Shown: positions 6,026 to 49,422 of the stretch, in pieces
Layout of the letters: each line of letters begins with the position of its first letter
Position numbering within the stretch: the first letter of the stretch is position 1
Assembly: GCA_030425645.1 (NCBI GenBank)
Contig: JAUHZK010000009.1
Coordinates: 66,290 to 115,711 of the forward strand
Source of the DNA: Gammaproteobacteria bacterium
Lineage (GTDB): Bacteria; Pseudomonadota; Gammaproteobacteria; JAPPPA01
DNA: 49,422 nucleotides
Reading direction: 5' to 3'
Program-made: the position numbers and the translations under genes
Notes under the pieces: generated by a model
What the model was told of the DNA's origin: nothing
Database searches by the model: none
What the model saw: the letters and a program-made list of their open reading frames with translations, nothing else

Positions 6026-6802
6026 TTACTTCTTCGCTGGCCCAGACACCAAGTCCACAAAGCGCAAAATAATCGCCCGCGGCGTGATACGAACGGATTG
6101 CGCCAGCAACCAATTAAATAACCCATGGATCACCACTCCGCGCCCACCGAGCATTTTGCGGTAGCCATAACTCGCGACCTCGTCAGCAGTTGGCAACTTT
6201 TTACCGCGCACCAACTTTGAGTTCTCCATTTCTGCCAAGGCTTGAAAGCCCGACACGGTGGCGCCCGGACACAAGGTAGTCACGGAAATCCCTGTATTTC
6301 GCAGCTCATAGCTAAGCGCATCAGAAAAGGACAATACATAAGCTTTAGTGGCGTAATACACCGCCATCCACGGGCCGGGCTGAAACGCTGCCGTTGATGC
6401 CACATTGAGAATGCGGCCGCTGCCGCGAGCCAAGAACGTCGGTAGTAGCAAGTGCGTCAATTGCGTCAAGGCCGTGATATTGAGCTGAACCATTTCATTA
6501 AGCTTGTTCCAGTCGCGCTCAGCAAAAGCACCAAAGTCACCAAAGCCGGCATTGTTGACTAGGTAGTCAATCGGTTTGCCGGCCAAGGCTTCAACAATCG
6601 TTTGCGCGGCGTTAGGCGTGGCCATATCGCAGGCAATCACCGCCACCGCTACTTCATGCTTAGACTTCAACTCGTCGGCCAAGGTTTGCAGCTTATCCTC
6701 ACTGCGCGCCACTAGTACCAAGTCAACTTTATCGGCCGCCATTAAGCGCGCCATTTCTAAGCCAATACCGCTGGAAGCGCCCGTAATTAATGCGGTTGTC
6801 AT
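6026..6802 (-). CDS. Short-chain dehydrogenase/reductase (SDR family)
   Basis: A 258-residue classical SDR, a cytoplasmic NAD(P)-dependent oxidoreductase. The cofactor motif TGASSGIG is at residues 7-14, NNAG at 83-86, and the catalytic set is Ser136, Tyr149 and Lys153 (Y-x3-K). The C-terminal PTADEVASYGYRKM stretch resembles the DltE/YqjQ-like subgroup, which often occurs with lipid genes, but the substrate cannot be read from the sequence. An AGAGG-like site precedes the ATG. DUF502 follows eight bases downstream. The gene lies 38 bases beyond the stop of the TPR-DUF1329 gene and may be co-transcribed with it. Confidence 0.9.
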   Translation of the reverse strand: MTTALITGASSGIGLEMARLMAADKVDLVLVARSEDKLQTLADELKSKHEVAVAVIACDMATPNAAQTIVEALAGKPIDYLVNNAGFGDFGAFAERDWNKLNEMVQLNITALTQLTHLLLPTFLARGSGRILNVASTAAFQPGPWMAVYYATKAYVLSFSDALSYELRNTGISVTTLCPGATVSGFQALAEMENSKLVRGKKLPTADEVASYGYRKMLGGRGVVIHGLFNWLLAQSVRITPRAIILRFVDLVSGPAKK

Positions 6803-6840: not shown

Positions 6841-9435
6841 TTATTTAATGCGCTGTTTCAGTTTAGTCGGTGAGAACCAGCCCGGCTTAAGCTCAGGTAA
6901 GTTGTATTCTGTAACGGTTTCTTCTTGGTGCAACTTGGTCACAAAATACCGTTTTTCAGCCAGATCATAGACAATTTCGGGCATCGTCGTTGCGGCTTGG
7001 ATATCAAACTGCGCCAACAGGTGCCCCTCTTGGAATTTCCATAAGCGGTTAGTGGCATTAAAACCATCCACCATCACAATGCCCCAGCTGTCCTCATCAA
7101 TATAGAAACGGCGCTTACGGAAGTGATGGCTAGTGCCGCTACGTTTAACGGCATCCACCACCCAAACACGATGTTTCTCATAGCGGGTGTATTGTGGGTT
7201 TAGAAATTCCGGCCCTAATATTTGGTCGTAGCTAAGGTCGCGCGCGTTTAATGCATAGGCGCTATAGGGAATAAACATTTCTCGCTTGCCAATCAAACGC
7301 CAGTCATAACGGTCAAAAGCACCGTTATACATATCGATCATATCGACAAACTGCAGCCCCTCTGAGCCCGGGTTGGGAAAGTCATAACCAATCGGCGGGA
7401 TACGCAGCACCTTTTTATAGCCGCCACCAGCGCCCCAGATCTTACGTGCACTTTGATCAACATCAATGGTGTCATGGGCCAATACGGTTGCACCGCGAGC
7501 CTGTTGTGGCGACAAGGTTTGAGCAAAATAGTAGATCAATAGATTCTTGCCGGCCGCTTTACCTGGGCTTTCTAAATTGCCGTAGTCGAAGCGGATTTTG
7601 ACGTCACTCACAATCTTCAACCAGCCACCGCCGGGACGCTGCGCAATGCTGGCAATGCGCCCCGCCATACTGTCTCCACGATAACGAACCCGGTGATTCC
7701 AAATCGCCTGCGCACCGTGCTCTGGCCGTCTAAACGGGAAACCTAAGCGCGCATCAACCAGGCTGTCCGAGCCAACTAACTTGGCGGTTTTTTCGTTTGC
7801 CAAGGTGGCATCGTAAATCGCTTGCGGGTAGCGCACCGTGCGATGGCTTGGATAAACCGGCATTTGGTAGCTGGGGTAAGCCTTAAACATGGCTTGGTGG
7901 CCCGCAGACAACCATTGCGCGTAATCCTGCACATTATCTTGAGTAATCACGAACAGCGGCTGTTCATCCGCAAAGGGGTTTACCAAAGCACCATTGGCAT
8001 CATGTATTGCTGGCAACGTAGCAACATCTAAGCCGCCGTCCCAAGCCGGGATACTGCCGTCACCGGAGGCCGCAAGCTCAGCCCCCACCGGCGTTAATTG
8101 GCCGGTATTTTGGCGCGCGCCACCGCCCTGCGCGTCGGCCACCTCAATGCCGCCGCGGCGGTATAAACCAGACACATCACCGCCCAAGCTGACGTTCACG
8201 CCAGCGTCTTTGCCAGCCACCTTAGAGGCAAAGAAACCATGCGATTCAATATCGTCTAAATACTTTAACCACTGCTGCGAAACCGCCTTCGAATTTTTAA
8301 AGCGCCCCGCCTGCGTAAAGGCATCACGAGCGCCGTTAAAATTTCGTTGCTGATAACGCGCCAAGCCCAAGGCCAGATAAGCCTCGTCTTGATTACTTCC
8401 CAAGCCCTGTAGTTTGATTGCGGTACTGAGCGCGACCTCAGCCTGACGCCATTGGCGCGAGTCCAAACGAATCTGCCCCAGCTGCAGCCACCATTCGCCT
8501 CTAGCCTTTTGCGCTAAGGCCTTATCTAACGCGGCCGCCGCCTTTTGATGCTCTCGCGCCTGCTGCCACAGAGCGGCGAGCTGCACATATTGCTCAGCAT
8601 GGGCCGACAAACTGCCGTCAGCAATCCAACCAGCCAATAGACTAGCGCCGTAAAAAGGCGCCCCAGCGCCCGCAAACAGCGACACAAACTGCTGCAAATC
8701 GGTTTCTTCAGATAACAGTCCGTAACGGTAGGCCATTTCCACCGTCGCCAAAGCCGAGTGACGTTTTTTCTGTTTTAACTGCAGACCCGCCAGTTGTTGC
8801 CAATAATCCAACTTGTCTGGATAAGCCCGCGTCATCCGTTGCAGTAGCGACTCGGCAGCTTTGTGATCCTTAGTATTAAAGTAAACCGCCAATAACAAGC
8901 GGTACCAATCTTCATGCTCTGCTTGCTGTTTACCGCCATCGATTTGCTCAATCGCACTCTGTAAAGGCCGCTTGGCTAGATCAAAACGTTTCAGCTGCAC
9001 ATAAGCACTACCTAACAACACCCAAGCCTGAGCTGTGGCGCCGCCACCATCTTTGAAGTAGGCCTTCATCAGATTAATGGCCTTTTGATACTGACCATCG
9101 GCGTAATAAAGCTGCGACAAGTTGTAGCGCACCGGCTGCAACGCCGGCCCCGATAACGACTTCTGTTTAAGCAGGCGTTGGTAATATTCAATCGCTTTGT
9201 CGTTGTTTTCGGCCTTGATCGCCTGCGCCGCTAACTGCTGCAACAACAACGAGGTTGCATAAGGGTTACCTTTGACTTTGCGCAGCTCTGCTTCTGCGTT
9301 CTTGGCCACTTCCTGAATGCTAGGTGGCTCTTCAATATCGCCACTAACTACGCGACTAGTGGACTCATACTGGGCGGCATAGGAAGCCGGCGCCAGCAGC
9401 GCAAGAAAACCAAACGCGAAAATCAGGCCACGCAT
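6841..9435 (-). CDS. TPR protein fused to a C-terminal DUF1329 domain, last gene of the TonB cluster
   Basis: An 864-residue exported protein with signal peptide MRGLIFAFGFLALLAPASYAA. Residues about 40-430 form helical TPR repeats, like the TPR protein that closes TonB2-type exb-tonB operons in marine gammaproteobacteria. From about residue 447 (LTPVGAE, then GDGSIPAWDGG) to the end it reads as a complete DUF1329 protein, a LolA/LppX-like periplasmic fold usually encoded separately next to DUF1302 and RND exporter genes. There is no internal stop and no frameshift is needed. It overlaps the tonB stop by one base. I infer a link between TonB energy and transfer of a lipidic or hydrophobic substrate at the outer membrane; this is not demonstrated. 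Confidence 0.85.
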   Translation of the reverse strand: MRGLIFAFGFLALLAPASYAAQYESTSRVVSGDIEEPPSIQEVAKNAEAELRKVKGNPYATSLLLQQLAAQAIKAENNDKAIEYYQRLLKQKSLSGPALQPVRYNLSQLYYADGQYQKAINLMKAYFKDGGGATAQAWVLLGSAYVQLKRFDLAKRPLQSAIEQIDGGKQQAEHEDWYRLLLAVYFNTKDHKAAESLLQRMTRAYPDKLDYWQQLAGLQLKQKKRHSALATVEMAYRYGLLSEETDLQQFVSLFAGAGAPFYGASLLAGWIADGSLSAHAEQYVQLAALWQQAREHQKAAAALDKALAQKARGEWWLQLGQIRLDSRQWRQAEVALSTAIKLQGLGSNQDEAYLALGLARYQQRNFNGARDAFTQAGRFKNSKAVSQQWLKYLDDIESHGFFASKVAGKDAGVNVSLGGDVSGLYRRGGIEVADAQGGGARQNTGQLTPVGAELAASGDGSIPAWDGGLDVATLPAIHDANGALVNPFADEQPLFVITQDNVQDYAQWLSAGHQAMFKAYPSYQMPVYPSHRTVRYPQAIYDATLANEKTAKLVGSDSLVDARLGFPFRRPEHGAQAIWNHRVRYRGDSMAGRIASIAQRPGGGWLKIVSDVKIRFDYGNLESPGKAAGKNLLIYYFAQTLSPQQARGATVLAHDTIDVDQSARKIWGAGGGYKKVLRIPPIGYDFPNPGSEGLQFVDMIDMYNGAFDRYDWRLIGKREMFIPYSAYALNARDLSYDQILGPEFLNPQYTRYEKHRVWVVDAVKRSGTSHHFRKRRFYIDEDSWGIVMVDGFNATNRLWKFQEGHLLAQFDIQAATTMPEIVYDLAEKRYFVTKLHQEETVTEYNLPELKPGWFSPTKLKQRIK

Positions 9436-27055: not shown

Positions 27056-27835
27056 TTATTCTTGTCGCTCGCCCATATGCGCCGCTTGAATGTGTCGGCG
27101 ACGTTCTTCTGCGTCTTTGTCGCTAAACAGAATAACGTGAGGGAATAACAACACGCGTAACAAAGCCACCAACATGTAGAGATAACTTAAGCTAAACATG
27201 GCGCCACAGAAGATGGAGACATACTCAAAGTTGGGGTGGATAAACTTAATGCCCCACCAGCTCATCACATCCACTAAGGCCGAGATCAAGCCAATCGGGA
27301 AGATAATTTGGTAGTAACGCAGATGGTTAAACTGCATCGAGAACGGCACCCCGATAACCAAAAACGAAGTAGTAAAACCGAACAAGTGCGCATGGGTAAA
27401 GGCGATCAGTTTGCCGGTCGACATGTTGGCAAAGTAAGCCTCAGCCGAACCATGCACATGAATCTGCCACCAAGCCTCTAAAGCACCAAAGGCAAAAGCA
27501 ATGCCGTACATGGTTAGCGCCATCGCTAGACCACGCTTTACGCCGGTTGGGTAGTGGTAAAGCAACAAGTCTTCTTTACTCACCTTAAACGGCACGGTGA
27601 CCTTATTTAGCCAAATCATAAAGAAGAAAAACACCGCCAAGGCGACGGGTGCTGCGGTGGTTTCCCAAACACTAGGCGGCTCAGGCACAGCCACTAGGTC
27701 ATCTTCAACAATCTCGATTTCAGCCAGAAAATCGCCTTCGCCGAAATCGAAGCCCTCCTCCGCTGTAGCAAATCCGCCCACCAAGACCAATAACAGCAGA
27801 GCAATCTTCAAGCTAGACATAGTTAAATAGCGCAT
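27056..27835 (-). CDS. Polytopic membrane protein of the cytochrome cluster, unknown family
   Basis: A 259-residue protein with an N-terminal signal-like helix, an acidic periplasmic stretch (FDFGEGDFLAEIEIVEDD), then five hydrophobic helices: about 62-78, 103-122, 145-165, 175-195 and 205-230. Histidines sit at or inside the membrane in WWQIHVHG and AFTHAHLFGF, with another in FNHLRYYQ; such positions could ligate haem or a metal. AGGGAA precedes the ATG by eight bases. I do not recognise the family. Position directly behind three c-type cytochrome genes suggests it is their membrane partner, perhaps in quinone or electron transfer; this is inference. Confidence 0.7.
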   Translation of the reverse strand: MRYLTMSSLKIALLLLVLVGGFATAEEGFDFGEGDFLAEIEIVEDDLVAVPEPPSVWETTAAPVALAVFFFFMIWLNKVTVPFKVSKEDLLLYHYPTGVKRGLAMALTMYGIAFAFGALEAWWQIHVHGSAEAYFANMSTGKLIAFTHAHLFGFTTSFLVIGVPFSMQFNHLRYYQIIFPIGLISALVDVMSWWGIKFIHPNFEYVSIFCGAMFSLSYLYMLVALLRVLLFPHVILFSDKDAEERRRHIQAAHMGERQE

Positions 27836-27855
27836 CGCGTATTTCCCTTAAAGGT

Positions 27856-28617
27856 TTAGCGCTTAAGGCGCACATAAATCATGGCGCCGGCTTTTTTGAC
27901 AGCATAAGCCAAGGCATCTGCCGCATTGTCGGCACCGGCTTGAGCCTCAACCTTGGGTGCAAATTGCCCCTTAAAGCGATCCACATCGCCAAAATCAAGA
28001 TCATCAGCTTGCAACGGCAGCACCTGGTCAACCGCTAGCTTACGCGTAGTGGTCACCAACACGAAGACGTTCTTGTCCGCCACCACCGCCGGCAAAATAA
28101 CCGCCACCCCCACCGGCTTGCCTTCGACAACCGGCAAATAGATAACCGTCTCATCCGTTTTACTTAAGCTCACGCCCATGCCCGCGGCGCGCTCGATGTC
28201 GTTGTCAGTGAATAAGGCATCCAACGGTTTATAGGTTTTTACGCCGGCAAATGCGGCCTGAATCGGTTTCGGAATCAGGTTCTCTACATTCAACCAGTTG
28301 CCAGGTTTAGCTGGCGTCGAGGCTGCATCTCCGGGGTGAGATTTGGCGGCGCCTTCGTCCGCATTGCTAAAGCCATCAGCATCGCTATCTTTGGCCGCTA
28401 TCAGCGCAAATGCAGCCGCATTCTGACCCGCCTGTTCAAAGGCTTTACCATAGGCGTTTAGGGGGCTGCCGCCGCCATCAACATGACAAGCATTGCAGGC
28501 GGGCATATAGCCAAATTGGCTTTTGTATTGGCGGGCGAAGCCCGGCTCAGCCATCAGCTGTGCCGATACCAACAAGCCACAAAGCCCTATTAAACCTTGG
28601 CTAATACGCTGTCTCAT
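27856..28617 (-). CDS. Monohaem c-type cytochrome with EF-hand-like loop and unknown C-terminal domain
   Basis: A 253-residue exported protein with a signal peptide ending near LMAEP (residue 24). The haem motif is CNACH (41-45). DSDADGFSNADE (77-88) matches the calcium-binding loop pattern. A second domain from about residue 120 to the end has alternating hydrophobic strands (ETVIYLPVVEGKPVGVAVILPAV) and no further haem motif; it loosely recalls FMN-binding or NosR-like periplasmic domains, but I cannot assign it. It lies between the anchored diheme protein and the membrane protein, with gaps of 46 and 20 bases. Confidence 0.75.
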   Translation of the reverse strand: MRQRISQGLIGLCGLLVSAQLMAEPGFARQYKSQFGYMPACNACHVDGGGSPLNAYGKAFEQAGQNAAAFALIAAKDSDADGFSNADEGAAKSHPGDAASTPAKPGNWLNVENLIPKPIQAAFAGVKTYKPLDALFTDNDIERAAGMGVSLSKTDETVIYLPVVEGKPVGVAVILPAVVADKNVFVLVTTTRKLAVDQVLPLQADDLDFGDVDRFKGQFAPKVEAQAGADNAADALAYAVKKAGAMIYVRLKR

Positions 28618-28663
28618 TCATTCCAACCTGTTTTTGTCTTCTGTCGCCGTCAAAAAATAGAAA

Positions 28664-30412
28664 CTAAAAATCAAATAACGACGGCATCGCATCTTGCATT
28701 CGCTGCAAGTCGTTCTCACCAGCACCCATTGCCGCGTCTAGTTTAGCTCGTTGCCGCGAGTTAGCCGGTGGCATCAGCTTGCCATCCTTCGCTGTTCCGG
28801 CAAAGCGCTCGTAGTCTAACGCGTCAGAAATTTCACTGGTTTCTTGAATACGCCGCAATACCTCATCCTCGCTATCGCCATTCATAAAGTCGAGCTTGGC
28901 ATTTGGGTTGCCTCGGTGACAGGCAAAACAATAGGTTTCAAAAACCTCCAACACCGAGCCCTGACTAATAGCCAACGGTGGCGCACCATCTGCCACGGGT
29001 GGCGACATACCTTCAGTCGTATGACAACAGCTATCCGGTAAGCGTTCCGCGCCGAGCTCCGTTAGCAAAGCTTGCAGTAGTGGAATACGGCGAAATGGCA
29101 GCGGCTCAAACAGGCTAACCAAGACCTCGCTATCCACTGCCGCTTTGACCGCCTCTAACTGGTATTGACTGTGCTTCTCCAAGAGGCGCAGATCGTTCTC
29201 GCTCAACATCTGCGCTAAACCGTAAATACCTTCTAAGGAGTCAGGGCCGTAGATCGCTTTGGGCGGTCTTGGCATTAAGGGGTCCACTTCTACCCTCAAG
29301 GGCGGCAATTTCTCGAACTCGGTCAACCCCAGTTCGACAGATTTTTCAGACAAGCTAGCGGCTGTTTCTGAAAACCCAAACAAATCCTTCAAGAATAACC
29401 ACAGCGGGCTGCCAAGCGGCTTTTCTGTTAAGGGGTTACGGTTGGCAAGGTCACCATTAGCTAGGCGCACACCTTCGCTAGGCCAGTTTTGAGACTGCAG
29501 CTGCAAATGTTCTAGCACAGCGGCGCTACTTGGATTAAAACTGCCCGGGCTCCACAGATATTCCAAGGCCAACTTAAGCATACTGCGGCGACAAGAATTA
29601 CCGGCATCACCGGCACCACAACCGTCTAACCAAATTTTCTGCGTAGTGATGATGGCATTGCCCTTGTCAGCCATATCATCAACGATCTCTGGGTTAGCCA
29701 AAGGTACCGATAGTGGCGCGCCAAAATAATTATCGTTGTCTGCGTGATGACCTTTAATGAGCTCCGCCACCCCTGGGTTCGCGTTGGTTTCTTCCCAAGG
29801 CCTTACCGGAAAGATCGGTGCTCCAGATTGATGGCAGGTGCTGCAAATCGCTCTTTTGGCGTAAACAATTTGAGGGTTCAGGTCTGGGCCATAATCTTTT
29901 ACTAGCTGAAACTCGAAGCGGCCGGCCATCTCGTTGTAGCTAATCACTTCAATTTCGTTGGCGTCTTCAACAAAACCCATAAACAAACGGCCTCGATACA
30001 TTTGATCAAAGGCGTAGTCGCTAGCTGGCTGCCGCACATCAGCCACGGCAAGTAAGCGAGGGTGTTTAAAGTTAGCTTGGCCTTTAAGTAAAGAACGCCC
30101 ATTAGGAATTAGCACCGTGGTCGCTGGCCGGCCGTCCCGATCTTGATTTGCCACTAGGTCCAAGAGCTCGTCAAATGGGTACGGCAAACTGCCATGCTCT
30201 TTAATGAGGTGGTCAAATAAGGAGCGCGTGCCCTCTGGCGGCAAGTCGTCCTCGGTAATCACTTGCGCATGCAGAGTGTCACTAGCTTGGGCCTGCCGCT
30301 CAGCCAGCTCACTAACTTTTAGCGTGCTGACCTCGGCATCGTCAGCTAGCAATAATTGGTAACCAATAACCGCCAGCAAAGCCAACAACACAAAAATGGC
30401 GAACTTTTTCAT
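28664..30412 (-). CDS. Membrane-anchored diheme c-type cytochrome, large
   Basis: A 582-residue protein with one N-terminal membrane helix (KKFAIFVLLALLAVIGYQLLL) that lacks an obvious cleavage site, so it is probably anchored facing the periplasm. Two haem motifs are CSTCH (190-194) and CFACH (495-499), the latter in a C-terminal domain ending with a KLMPPANS motif whose methionine could be the axial ligand. CCHTTEG near 462 is another cysteine pair. The middle 300 residues have no domain I recognise. It is separated from the large cytochrome upstream by 123 bases carrying a hairpin. Confidence 0.78.
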   Translation of the reverse strand: MKKFAIFVLLALLAVIGYQLLLADDAEVSTLKVSELAERQAQASDTLHAQVITEDDLPPEGTRSLFDHLIKEHGSLPYPFDELLDLVANQDRDGRPATTVLIPNGRSLLKGQANFKHPRLLAVADVRQPASDYAFDQMYRGRLFMGFVEDANEIEVISYNEMAGRFEFQLVKDYGPDLNPQIVYAKRAICSTCHQSGAPIFPVRPWEETNANPGVAELIKGHHADNDNYFGAPLSVPLANPEIVDDMADKGNAIITTQKIWLDGCGAGDAGNSCRRSMLKLALEYLWSPGSFNPSSAAVLEHLQLQSQNWPSEGVRLANGDLANRNPLTEKPLGSPLWLFLKDLFGFSETAASLSEKSVELGLTEFEKLPPLRVEVDPLMPRPPKAIYGPDSLEGIYGLAQMLSENDLRLLEKHSQYQLEAVKAAVDSEVLVSLFEPLPFRRIPLLQALLTELGAERLPDSCCHTTEGMSPPVADGAPPLAISQGSVLEVFETYCFACHRGNPNAKLDFMNGDSEDEVLRRIQETSEISDALDYERFAGTAKDGKLMPPANSRQRAKLDAAMGAGENDLQRMQDAMPSLFDF

Positions 30413-30459
30413 ATGCCTATCCGAACCCTATTTCGGTCATTACATTGATGCTTAAAGCC

Positions 30460-30496
30460 AAAAGGCCGACTCCACAATGCGCGGAACCGGCCTTTT
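30460..30496 (-). terminator. Hairpin after the large cytochrome gene (partial terminator)
   Basis: AAAAGGCCG (30460-30468) pairs with CGGCCTTTT (30488-30496), and the inner TCCGC/GTGGA pairing extends the stem. On the minus strand the T-rich arm ends in TTTTGGCTTT. It lies between the first and second cytochrome genes and may lower downstream expression rather than stop it. Confidence 0.6.
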
Positions 30497-30535
30497 GATT
30501 TTTATGCAAACAAAACTAAGGAGGTCCTTAGTTGC

Positions 30536-32968
30536 TTACATCATTTTCAAGAACTCAGTTAAGGCGCGCTTCTCGTCGGCACTTAGGTCAACACCAAACT
30601 GGTGACCTTTGTTTTCAACTAAGTCGTCACACTTCTGGAACGTTGGGCTGTGAGGGTCTGAGCTACCAAAGTTAGCAATCGGTGTCCCTTCTTTCACAGG
30701 CAACTTGATAAAGCCTTGGCCGTCTTCACGCAGCGCCAGCTTCATATCCATCGTGGTCTTGGTGATCTTCTGTGGACGATGTGGCTCCACATTCGGATCA
30801 TCAGACATTAGCAGACGTTCCATCGCAATCTCGTACTGCTGCACGCGACCTTTAACGGTGTAATCAATGCTGCCGTCTGGCAAGTAGGTCAATTCGCCTA
30901 GCGAGTTGTTGTGCAAGAACGGCGCAATCGCCCAAGCAGATAGCAAGGAAATATTACGGAAGTAACCGGCGCCAGAGCCTTCGCCGCCAATTTCAGTCTC
31001 GCCGAATTCCATACCACCTAGGCCTGGCACCATACGGCTTAGACGGCGCGGCACAGAACCCACTGAAGGACGCTCACGGAAGGTTTCTGAAGCGAACTCC
31101 TCCCAGATATGACCTTCGTCATGGTTGTCATGCATGGCACGGCACATATTCACGCCAACTTCATGGAATGGCGTGATGTTGTCGTTACCCAACCAGTCCT
31201 GACCAAACAAACCATCTTTAGCGAACTGCGCCGGACGCTTAACGCCGTTGGCATCGGTCGCCATATGCTTGGCTTGGAATTTGGCGGAGTTACGTTCTTC
31301 AGCGGTAAATTCGTATTGCCAGAACTGCTCAGCGCCAAATACATGGCCTTCGTAGAATTTCTCCAAGGCATCTTTGTCATTGGTGATTGACTCAGGCGGC
31401 ACTTTAGTCGAGTGACAACGAGCACACTCACGGGCATAAGTCTTACGGCCTTCAGGTACCTTGGCGGTGTCAATAAAGGCTGAGCCCGGCGTGCCATCAA
31501 CGTCAGTCGCATTCATCAAGTAGGTTGGGCCGCTGGTCATAATGTACTGCGCTAAATGACCCATCTTGGCATCAGCATGGTTCCAAGCTTCACACTCTTC
31601 CGCACACTGCTTAATGCTCATTGGCTGTTGACGTGACTTGTCGCCAAAGAACGTTCCTGGGTAAGGGAAGTTAGGTACCCAGCACTCTTCGGTACACATA
31701 CCAATATTGATATATACACGTAGCAAAGCTAAACGATCACCTACCGAATCCTCAGCGCCTTTCAGCACGTGGAAGGTTGGTGCTTCTTCAAGCTCACCGG
31801 TAAATGGGTGCTTCATTACGTGGTTAAAGACACGCTTATTCATAAAGTCGGTGATGTTGTTCTGGGTACCCGGATTGTTCATAAAGTCATTCGGGTTAAT
31901 CGAGGTATCAACCGTACCGGGGCGCGCAGAACCAATCACCTGCTTAGCAAAATGATCCGGTGGCGTCGCGGACAAGAAACCTGTCAGCGGCTGATTCACA
32001 TATTGGTTACCAATCAAGCCCATAATGTTTTCCCATTCGGGCTCATTCGGGTCTTGAGGCGGATTGGTTGGATCAAAGGCTACGTGGCACTGCACGCAAG
32101 GATGGCCAATCGCAAAACGGCGATTGTTTTCACGCTCGCCTTCTTGATAAGGGGTGGTTCTAGGGTCAAAAATCACATTGCCGTCAGCGTCTAACTCTGG
32201 CTCGCGGAAATATTTGCGATAGCCCAATACGCCGGTGCTATGAGGGTCTTGGCAGATATCTACCCAATACGACTCTTCATTACCCTCTTTACAATCCGGG
32301 TCATTAATCATGCCCCACTTGGTAAAGCGCTGAGAACGCGTGCGCGTGTCCATCCACGGCGCATAGTTCATATTCTCTTTGCCGATGGTACGTGCAAGGT
32401 GAATTTCATTTAGGTCTTGGTTGCCAAAGGTACCTTTAAACCAAACATCACGGCCGCGACGCACTGATTCACGCAAGGCCTTGGCCTTCTCTGGATCAAC
32501 CGCTTCTACGTCTTTATAAAGACTATTGGCAATACGGCAACCTTCGGCGTCATAGCCGGTTGGTTGGGGCTGATCGCAATCGGGTGGATCGTACTGAGGA
32601 AGCGGCACAATATCCCAAGTAATGGGACCACCGCGCTCATGTTCTTCGGGGCTGGTGCCTTCGTGCCAAACTTTACGCGAGGCTAAGGTGGCATAGAACG
32701 TGTCGTCATAGCGATCAAAGTTCTCTTCAACCTTGGGTGAACCGTGGTAGATACCAGTCAGTTTGCCACGTGCGGCCAGTTCTTCTAGCGGAGCGCTACG
32801 TAGCGTCCGAGTAAAGCCCTCGTCAGAAACCGGAATCTCTGCAAAACCGTCCTCGCCAACTGGGTGACCGGGTGCCGGTTCAACCAAATTGGGAATGACA
32901 TCAATCGCCCAAGTGAAACTTGCTGCAGCGGCAACGCCTGCCAGTGCCAGAGTGATTTTTTTCATCAC
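30536..32968 (-). CDS. Large exported diheme cytochrome, CCP/MauG/RoxA-like
   Basis: An 810-residue protein with a signal peptide (residues 1-20, ending FTWA). Haem motifs are CVQCH (291-295) and CARCH (515-519). The C-terminal domain contains ISLLSAWAIAPFLHNNSLG with His686, which parallels the APYLHNG motif of cytochrome c peroxidase/MauG proteins and of rubber-oxygenase-type RoxA. Extra cysteines (CTEEC, CAEEC) could form disulfides. Size and motifs suggest a periplasmic oxidoreductase or oxygenase with an unknown substrate. The ATG has a strong AAGGAAGG site. It is first in the cluster, behind its own promoter and an inverted repeat. Confidence 0.8.
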   Translation of the reverse strand: MMKKITLALAGVAAAASFTWAIDVIPNLVEPAPGHPVGEDGFAEIPVSDEGFTRTLRSAPLEELAARGKLTGIYHGSPKVEENFDRYDDTFYATLASRKVWHEGTSPEEHERGGPITWDIVPLPQYDPPDCDQPQPTGYDAEGCRIANSLYKDVEAVDPEKAKALRESVRRGRDVWFKGTFGNQDLNEIHLARTIGKENMNYAPWMDTRTRSQRFTKWGMINDPDCKEGNEESYWVDICQDPHSTGVLGYRKYFREPELDADGNVIFDPRTTPYQEGERENNRRFAIGHPCVQCHVAFDPTNPPQDPNEPEWENIMGLIGNQYVNQPLTGFLSATPPDHFAKQVIGSARPGTVDTSINPNDFMNNPGTQNNITDFMNKRVFNHVMKHPFTGELEEAPTFHVLKGAEDSVGDRLALLRVYINIGMCTEECWVPNFPYPGTFFGDKSRQQPMSIKQCAEECEAWNHADAKMGHLAQYIMTSGPTYLMNATDVDGTPGSAFIDTAKVPEGRKTYARECARCHSTKVPPESITNDKDALEKFYEGHVFGAEQFWQYEFTAEERNSAKFQAKHMATDANGVKRPAQFAKDGLFGQDWLGNDNITPFHEVGVNMCRAMHDNHDEGHIWEEFASETFRERPSVGSVPRRLSRMVPGLGGMEFGETEIGGEGSGAGYFRNISLLSAWAIAPFLHNNSLGELTYLPDGSIDYTVKGRVQQYEIAMERLLMSDDPNVEPHRPQKITKTTMDMKLALREDGQGFIKLPVKEGTPIANFGSSDPHSPTFQKCDDLVENKGHQFGVDLSADEKRALTEFLKMM

Positions 32969-48343: not shown

Positions 48344-49333
48344 TTAGAAGCTGTAGCGAATATCAATGCTGTAGTGATCGCGGTCGTTTTCCAAGTTACG
48401 ATCGCCAGCGCCGTTAAACCAGTTGTATTTTAGGTTAAGCGCCCAGTCACCTTTAACAAACTCACTGCCCCACAAGAAACGCTTACGGCCTTCAACAAAG
48501 TTGCCGCCAGGGCCAGGAGAGTTGCCGTTGATATCCCAGAAAGCACCCAAGGTTTGGTTCAAAGTGCTACCAAAGATCAAATTGTTATAGGTCATGATGG
48601 TCAGCACGCGCGCACCCCAGGAGAAGCTATCAGCAAAGGTTGATAACGGTTCAGAGTCTGGCGTTTGATTAAGCACACCCGGCACACAGGTAAAGTCAAA
48701 GGCTTGTGTGTTGCTTAGCAAATTACCCAACACCGCAACAGGGTTGGTTAATAGACCGGTTACCGGGCTACCGACTGCTTGAACTAAAACGTTACTTTCT
48801 TGGTTACAAGCCGTTCCAGAGACGGTTAACGCCTGGTCCTGCTGCGCTCGACCTACACCGGCATGGTTGTCATCGCCAGGAGCCGATAGCTGCAATACAT
48901 TTTTGTCTGGCATATCCCATACTTTGGTAGCACCAAAGTCGCCCACAATCACAACAGAGTCAGCACCAAATGGGTTTTGACCAGTGGAGTACAAAGTAGT
49001 CACCGAGAAGTTAGCAACAGGTAGTTCTACATAACCATGAATAATCTCTCCCGGTTTCGCCTGAAACTCATCGGTTGGCGAATACTGAAAACCAGAAGCG
49101 TCTTCACCGCCATCCCAGTAAGTCCGGTAAGGCTGACCGGCACGGTAGGCCTCAATATAGCTACGCGCTGTTACATCCCGAGAGGTTCCAAACGCCGGGC
49201 TCAGCGCATACAAGGTCAAATCAACGGGGCTAATTTGCACCGGCAAATCGGGGCGGTAAGCCACTTCACCCGACAGCGACAGGTCGCCAACTGTGGTGTT
49301 AAAAGGGCTATTTGCATTTGAAGGTTGCATCGT
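48344..49333 (-). pseudogene. DUF1302 family outer-membrane protein, 5' part missing
   Basis: The C-terminal part of a beta-barrel protein: GEVAYRPDLPVQ, the WDINGNSPGPGGNFVEGRK motif, the RNLENDRDHY segment and a terminal SIDIRYSF ending in phenylalanine are typical of DUF1302. About 310 residues match; family members usually have 550 or more. Upstream, the frame reads through short repeats for a few codons to an ATG at 49372 and then meets TAA at 49396-49394, so the N-terminal half and the signal peptide are missing from this place. The gene looks truncated by an inserted element; a frameshift or assembly junction is another possibility. DUF1302 proteins often pair with DUF1329 proteins. 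Confidence 0.65.
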
Positions 49334-49422
49334 AACTTTGCTGAAACTCCAAAAAAAGCCCGTAATTTGCATTTCAGGGTTGCAAGGTGGTTTTTAAGTG
49401 TTAGTCTGTAACTTGCATTTCA
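49308..49422. mobile_element. Array of short repeats, candidate transposon end
   Basis: On the minus strand TGCAA(G/A)TTAC-type units start at about 49420 (AAATGCAAGTTACAGACT), 49374 (AAATGCAAATTACGGGCT), 49344 (AGCAAAGTTACGATGC) and 49319 (AAATGCAAATAGCCC), with TGCAACC links. Multiple ordered binding-like sites at the broken edge of a gene recall the ends of Tn7/Tn5053-like transposons, where transposase binds repeated sites. The exact boundary lies somewhere in 49293-49320; the rest of the element is outside the window. Confidence 0.45.

Follow-up and report, generated by a model that had tools for sequence, protein, structure and literature searches.

A TonB-cluster TPR protein fused to DUF1329, a domain with a predicted LolA-like fold, is characteristic of the Nevskiales/Salinisphaerales

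The locus and the fusion protein

The window (the whole stretch of DNA that we analyzed, 49,422 nucleotides) contains a TonB cluster whose last gene, directly after TonB, encodes a TPR protein fused to a DUF1329 domain (Table 1). The other genes of the cluster encode ExbB2, a long ExbB, and a DUF3450 protein. Neither DUF1329 nor DUF3450 has a known function. A second genome from the window's genus, which was assembled independently, has the identical arrangement. The gene for a short-chain dehydrogenase (SDR) on the other side of the fusion is also kept as a neighbor in the sister species. We identified no outer-membrane receptor at the window's locus, and there is no RND or MMPL transporter beside the fusion.

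Table 1. Features of the window, with positions counted from its first nucleotide.
Feature	Position	Strand	Details
SDR	6026..6802	-	38 bases downstream of the fusion; membership in the system uncertain
TPR-DUF1329 fusion gene	6841..9435	-	864 amino acids, ATG start; closes the TonB cluster
DUF1329 / LolA-like domain, residues 445-864	6844..8103	-	Pfam match (496-859), model, Foldseek
Linker, residues 399-444	8104..8241	-	Low confidence in the AlphaFold model; probably flexible
TPR solenoid, residues 40-398	8242..9318	-	Pfam, homology, AlphaFold model
Signal peptide, residues 1-20	9376..9435	-	...APASYA/AQYES, read by eye
TonB, 237 amino acids	9435..10148	-	TonB_C, E = 3.2e-12; GTG start
ExbB2-type proton-channel protein, 199 amino acids	10148..10747	-	MotA_ExbB match
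Long ExbB (TtpC-type), 452 amino acids	10771..12129	-	MotA_ExbB match; N-terminal coiled-coil/DUF3450-like extension
DUF3450 protein (TtpB-type), 259 amino acids	12129..12908	-	E = 1.4e-73; head of the cluster
Four-gene block with haem-c motifs	27056..32968	-	Three of the genes have CxxCH motifs (one, two, and two)
DUF1302 outer-membrane protein, C-terminal part	48344..49372	-	At the contig end

The sequence-only reading had described a TPR protein and a full DUF1329 domain in a single frame, and profile searches gave significant matches for both. The DUF1329 match (PF07044) spans residues 496-859 and covers positions 1-367 of the 368 in the profile (E = 2.8e-108). Its score of 362.9 bits, versus a gathering cut-off of 23.1, shows membership over the whole profile. 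Several TPR families match between residues 65 and 395. The TPR half is homologous to the stand-alone TPR protein that belongs to the second Ttp cluster of the genome (28% identity, E = 4.9e-33), and our label of TtpD-type rests on this homology, not on a comparison with Vibrio TtpD. Identity between the fused DUF1329 and the genome's stand-alone DUF1329 proteins is 36-42%. Since the N-terminus is Sec-type and the protein as read has zero cysteines in its 864 amino acids, we expect it to be a soluble periplasmic protein and not a lipoprotein.

An AlphaFold model, built from an alignment of 35 fused homologs (mean pLDDT of 82), has TPR helices at residues 40-398, a disordered linker at roughly 400-444, and then a LolA-like domain; the pTM is 0.52, so how the two domains are placed relative to each other is uncertain. 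When compared to solved structures with Foldseek, the predicted first half matches TPR solenoids. The predicted second half matches LolA3 (9tp6, with a TM-score by target length of 0.76), the LolA-like protein 3bk5 (0.67), and a solved DUF1329 protein (4z48, 0.66, E = 2.7e-9). By sequence, the protein does not reach the LolA family: the LolA_like profile in Pfam gives 16 bits versus a cut-off of 30 (E = 0.0097).

ExbD and the type of the cluster

The window's cluster shares these features with TonB2/Ttp systems: DUF3450 at the head, a long ExbB with a second short ExbB, and TonB with a TonB_C domain. A TPR protein is the last gene, as in those systems, but it carries DUF1329. As the sequence-only reading had noticed, ExbD is missing. 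ExbD queries had zero matches in the window's TonB cluster, and the stop codon of ExbB2 (TAG) and the start codon of TonB (GTG) share one base, which leaves no space for ExbD between them. Because ExbD in cis is the feature that fails among those we tested, the cluster is best described, from its genes, as Ttp-type rather than as a full member.

The absence of ExbD had also been proposed as a defining trait of a new system. This does not hold: ExbD is present in 43 of the 48 named loci with the fusion, and the window's genome has both an orphan ExbD and a complete second Ttp cluster. Among the named fused loci, a true absence of ExbD from the cluster is limited to the window's genus and Abyssibacter (L144, with which L105 groups). 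In three further named loci where ExbD is missing, a contig end truncates the sequence. The two losses seem to be secondary and, judging by the tree of the fusion, independent.

The window's genome encodes six ExbD/TolR-type genes: one is in the complete Ttp cluster, one is the orphan, two are in tandem, and two are beside ExbB/TolQ-like genes. The orphan is on another contig (G000:C8:224091-224462, or L087:7095-7472), where it adjoins an alpha/beta hydrolase gene, with no ExbB alongside. We considered that the orphan might be the cluster's own ExbD, relocated, but its nearest relatives are the ExbD proteins of unfused clusters, not those of fused clusters, so we rejected this. Nevertheless, the orphan is a candidate that may supply ExbD in trans to the window's cluster.

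Distribution and origin of the fusion

The fusion had been described as a property of "this lineage." It is indeed present in the window's genus, whose order is represented by only two genomes in our data set, but it is not confined there. In an even draw of 369 genomes from the class, we found the fusion only in the window's genus and in one other genome (G026), and a draw of 398 genomes from the phylum added no further fusion. A scan of named genomes identified the order of G026 as Nevskiales/Salinisphaerales, and 58 of 85 genomes from this order have the full-length fusion. There are 48 named loci with the full fusion, of which one (L119) is from the window's genus. The fusion is present in the type strains of Solimonas, Hydrocarboniphaga, Fontimonas, Panacagrimonas, Sinimarinibacterium, and Stenotrophobium, and also in Nevskia. 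In the named loci and in the genomes of the order, it is almost always visible as the final gene of the same cluster. The fusion is a characteristic of the Nevskiales/Salinisphaerales; the survey of the order also includes G278, which has an unfused cluster (L209) and whose relatives yielded no fusion.

The window comes from a draft genome with 16 contigs, and assembly or annotation might have wrongly joined two neighboring genes. We consider this extremely improbable and rejected it. The independent assembly from the genus has the full-length open frame as well, at 86% identity, as do other named loci, cultured type strains among them. The sequence-only reading would have been undone if related genomes always had two separate genes here; instead, many carry the same fusion.

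We excised the TPR and DUF1329 domains from the loci, labeled them as fused or unfused by their reading frames, and built one tree for each half (153 tips for DUF1329 and 90 tips for TPR). In both trees, the fused copies form a single clade (support of 0.993 and 0.99). The only tip in the fused clade that lacks the fused label (L214) ends at a contig edge. A single fused clade in both trees means that the fusion arose once, as one old event followed by inheritance or early transfer. In the TPR tree, the window's genus is basal in the fused clade, and ThrS from the window's lineage is closest to that of Abyssibacter (65%, for this one marker). The window's genus could have obtained the fusion either by vertical descent or by an old transfer.

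Gene neighbors of the fused cluster

A link to DUF1302 had been expected from the usual company of DUF1329. Using the genome's own DUF1302 proteins as queries, we found DUF1302 within about 1.5 kb of 26 of 27 stand-alone DUF1329 loci, but at only 4 of the 48 named fused loci, even when the search reached up to 10 kb into the flanks. In the window, no DUF1302 gene is near the fusion. We rejected a DUF1302 partnership at the fusion locus: the fused DUF1329 is uncoupled from its usual gene neighbor and is coupled to the Ton cluster instead. Besides the partial DUF1302 gene at the contig end (Table 1), the window's genome has seven DUF1302 matches, some with 730-880 amino acids.

The core order DUF3450-ExbB1-ExbB2-ExbD-TonB-fusion is found in every one of the 38 named loci that have 6.5 kb or more of upstream sequence. 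Downstream of the fused cluster, among the 37 loci with enough flank, we found an ABC1/UbiB-type kinase in 23, DUF2505 in 21, and a second DUF1329 in 17, while upstream, among 36 loci with enough flank, 18 have an alpha/beta hydrolase and 7 have an MMPL/RND transporter (these counts span related species and hence are not independent events). The clearest operon is in L165, which has LolA-like, MMPL (with a match to a sterol-sensing domain), DUF3450 through the fusion, GDPD, two small genes, ABC1, DUF1329, and DUF2505. The cluster in the window's own genus lacks ABC1, DUF2505, and the second DUF1329. No DUF1329 or ABC1 kinase adjoins any of 24 complete unfused Ttp clusters, and ExbD is present in all 24.

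We did not count the SDR as a conserved partner, as the upstream SDR in relatives is only distantly similar (63 bits, for the one that we checked). The SDR and the alpha/beta hydrolase are members of very broad superfamilies. Taken together, the operon context in relatives (ABC1, the second DUF1329, DUF2505, the hydrolase, and sometimes LolA with MMPL/RND) seems to fit work on lipids or other hydrophobic molecules.

We also noticed several other arrangements. The MMPL proteins at L094:12933-15659 and L165:2927-5620, which stand first in some of the fused operons, combine a C-terminal cyclic-nucleotide-binding domain with the sterol-sensing match. In the window's genome, the complete unfused Ttp cluster (L022, G000:C2:188000-206500) is divergent and lies near a DUF1329-YCF48-MMPL/RND set; a similar arrangement is absent beside the 24 other unfused clusters. 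At L213:9184-11808, L240, L248, and L250, DUF3450, a long ExbB, and ExbD occur in another order, with no TonB seen directly beside them, and these clusters may represent another type of DUF3450 motor. Finally, the haem-c block in the window has almost no Pfam matches, and we found no clear solved relative of its 810-amino-acid protein. In a Salinisphaerales MAG (L160/L096), homologs of the block with 50-68% identity, arranged in the same order and orientation, adjoin the fused TonB cluster on its upstream side; the window's block and TonB cluster are 14 kb apart. A functional link or a joint transfer is possible.

Proposed role of the fusion

We propose that the fused clusters are a variant of the TonB2/Ttp system in which a TtpD-type TPR subunit is permanently joined to a LolA-like DUF1329, so that a carrier of hydrophobic ligands is tethered to the motor. 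We put the probability of this at about one half. The firm ground for it is the architecture, the single origin, the predicted LolA-like fold, and the fixed place as the last gene of a conserved TonB cluster. The fusion is evidence for a tie between the two domains, not for their cargo; the two halves may cooperate in lipid transport.

The TPR half would dock on the complex of ExbB, DUF3450, and TonB. With the flexible linker, the DUF1329 half could pick up or deliver a hydrophobic ligand (a fatty acid, sterol, hydrocarbon, or lipid), and this exchange might occur near the outer-membrane channel that TonB contacts. In the relatives, the second DUF1329, the DUF2505 protein, and, in some species, a LolA-like protein and an MMPL/RND pump could pass the ligand onward. 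More tentatively, the whole could be a dedicated and hitherto undescribed machine, driven by the Ton motor, that moves hydrophobic molecules across the envelope: TonB would transmit the proton-motive force, and the tethered LolA-like carrier would take the ligand at the outer membrane and pass it to the second DUF1329 or LolA and to MMPL/RND. Import of hydrophobic growth substrates seems slightly more likely than export of envelope lipids, and we favor it only weakly. The sequence-only reading had also linked the TonB system to lipids. The fusion is real and has become fixed across a large clade, and the relatives' operons fit that idea, but the arguments from the absence of ExbD and from DUF1302 fell away.

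Alternatively, the motor might maintain the envelope by driving the movement of endogenous lipids or lipoproteins from one membrane to the other, as in LolA-like or Tol-Pal-like systems, with the DUF1329 half as a tethered shuttle. This would suit the LolA-like fold and its match to the solved LolA3, the LolA-like and MMPL/RND genes that head some operons, and neighbors of the lipid-metabolism type (the ABC1 kinase and GDPD). Also, the recurrent operon genes include no outer-membrane receptor. However, hydrocarbon users are abundant in the fused clade, which we count against this explanation. Furthermore, the characterized DUF1329 proteins are tied to the use of exogenous hydrophobic compounds: AmeB is required for growth on monoterpenes (PMC6394551) and PP_0766 is required for growth on Tween 20 (PMC10866462). 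And the Ttp systems that have been studied serve uptake: in Vibrio, TonB2-dependent uptake requires both the DUF3450 protein TtpB2 and the TPR protein TtpD2 (PMC6957404). We consider envelope maintenance to be somewhat unlikely.

We also considered that the fusion might matter only for stoichiometry or localization, with the TonB cluster acting as a general energizer of TonB-dependent receptors and DUF1329 acting in its own, unrelated pathway. A linker that is predicted to be disordered is consistent with this, as are the missing DUF1302 at most fused loci and the description of the Vibrio TonB2 system without any DUF1329 (PMC6957404). But the fusion has been kept in tens of species, as one clade and with no split copy (the one seeming exception, L214, is truncated at a contig end), and it recurs together with a second DUF1329 and lipid-type genes. 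This explanation seems unlikely.

Our proposal of a tethered carrier touches an open question, which is how lipid-type transport at the outer membrane is supplied with energy. As the covalent link between a Ton subunit and a LolA-like carrier is conserved in cultured environmental genera, the system is directly testable.

Comparison with known systems

In open-access text, we found no paper that names the fusion or that mentions DUF1329 together with tetratricopeptide. Domain databases probably list the TPR-DUF1329 architecture already.

The predicted C-terminal half shares its fold with the LolA carriers (3bk5, and LolA3, 9tp6), but with only about 11-16% sequence identity. It belongs to another sequence family, and there is no LolCDE or LolB context. 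A complete DUF1329 with a LolA-like fold is also shared with the DUF1302-DUF1329-YCF48-RND sets, such as AmeABCD of Castellaniella (PMC6394551) and, in Pseudomonas putida, PP_0765/PP_0766 with PP_2018/PP_2019 (PMC10866462). In contrast to those sets, the window's DUF1329 is fused to a subunit of the Ton complex, and the DUF1302 barrel, the YCF48-like protein, and the cognate RND gene are absent beside it. The versions of the operon with LolA and MMPL resemble the BstABC sterol transport system of Methylococcus (PMC10942540), which is a lipid conduit through multiple compartments with an RND member in the inner membrane. However, the periplasmic proteins are from different families, and BstABC has no Ton motor.

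The kinds of genes in the window's cluster are those of the Vibrio TonB2/TonB3 (Ttp) systems (TtpB, TtpC, ExbB2, ExbD2, TonB2, and TtpD). Here, the TPR protein has a C-terminal DUF1329, the window's cluster is without ExbD, and the operons of most relatives have extra genes of the lipid type.
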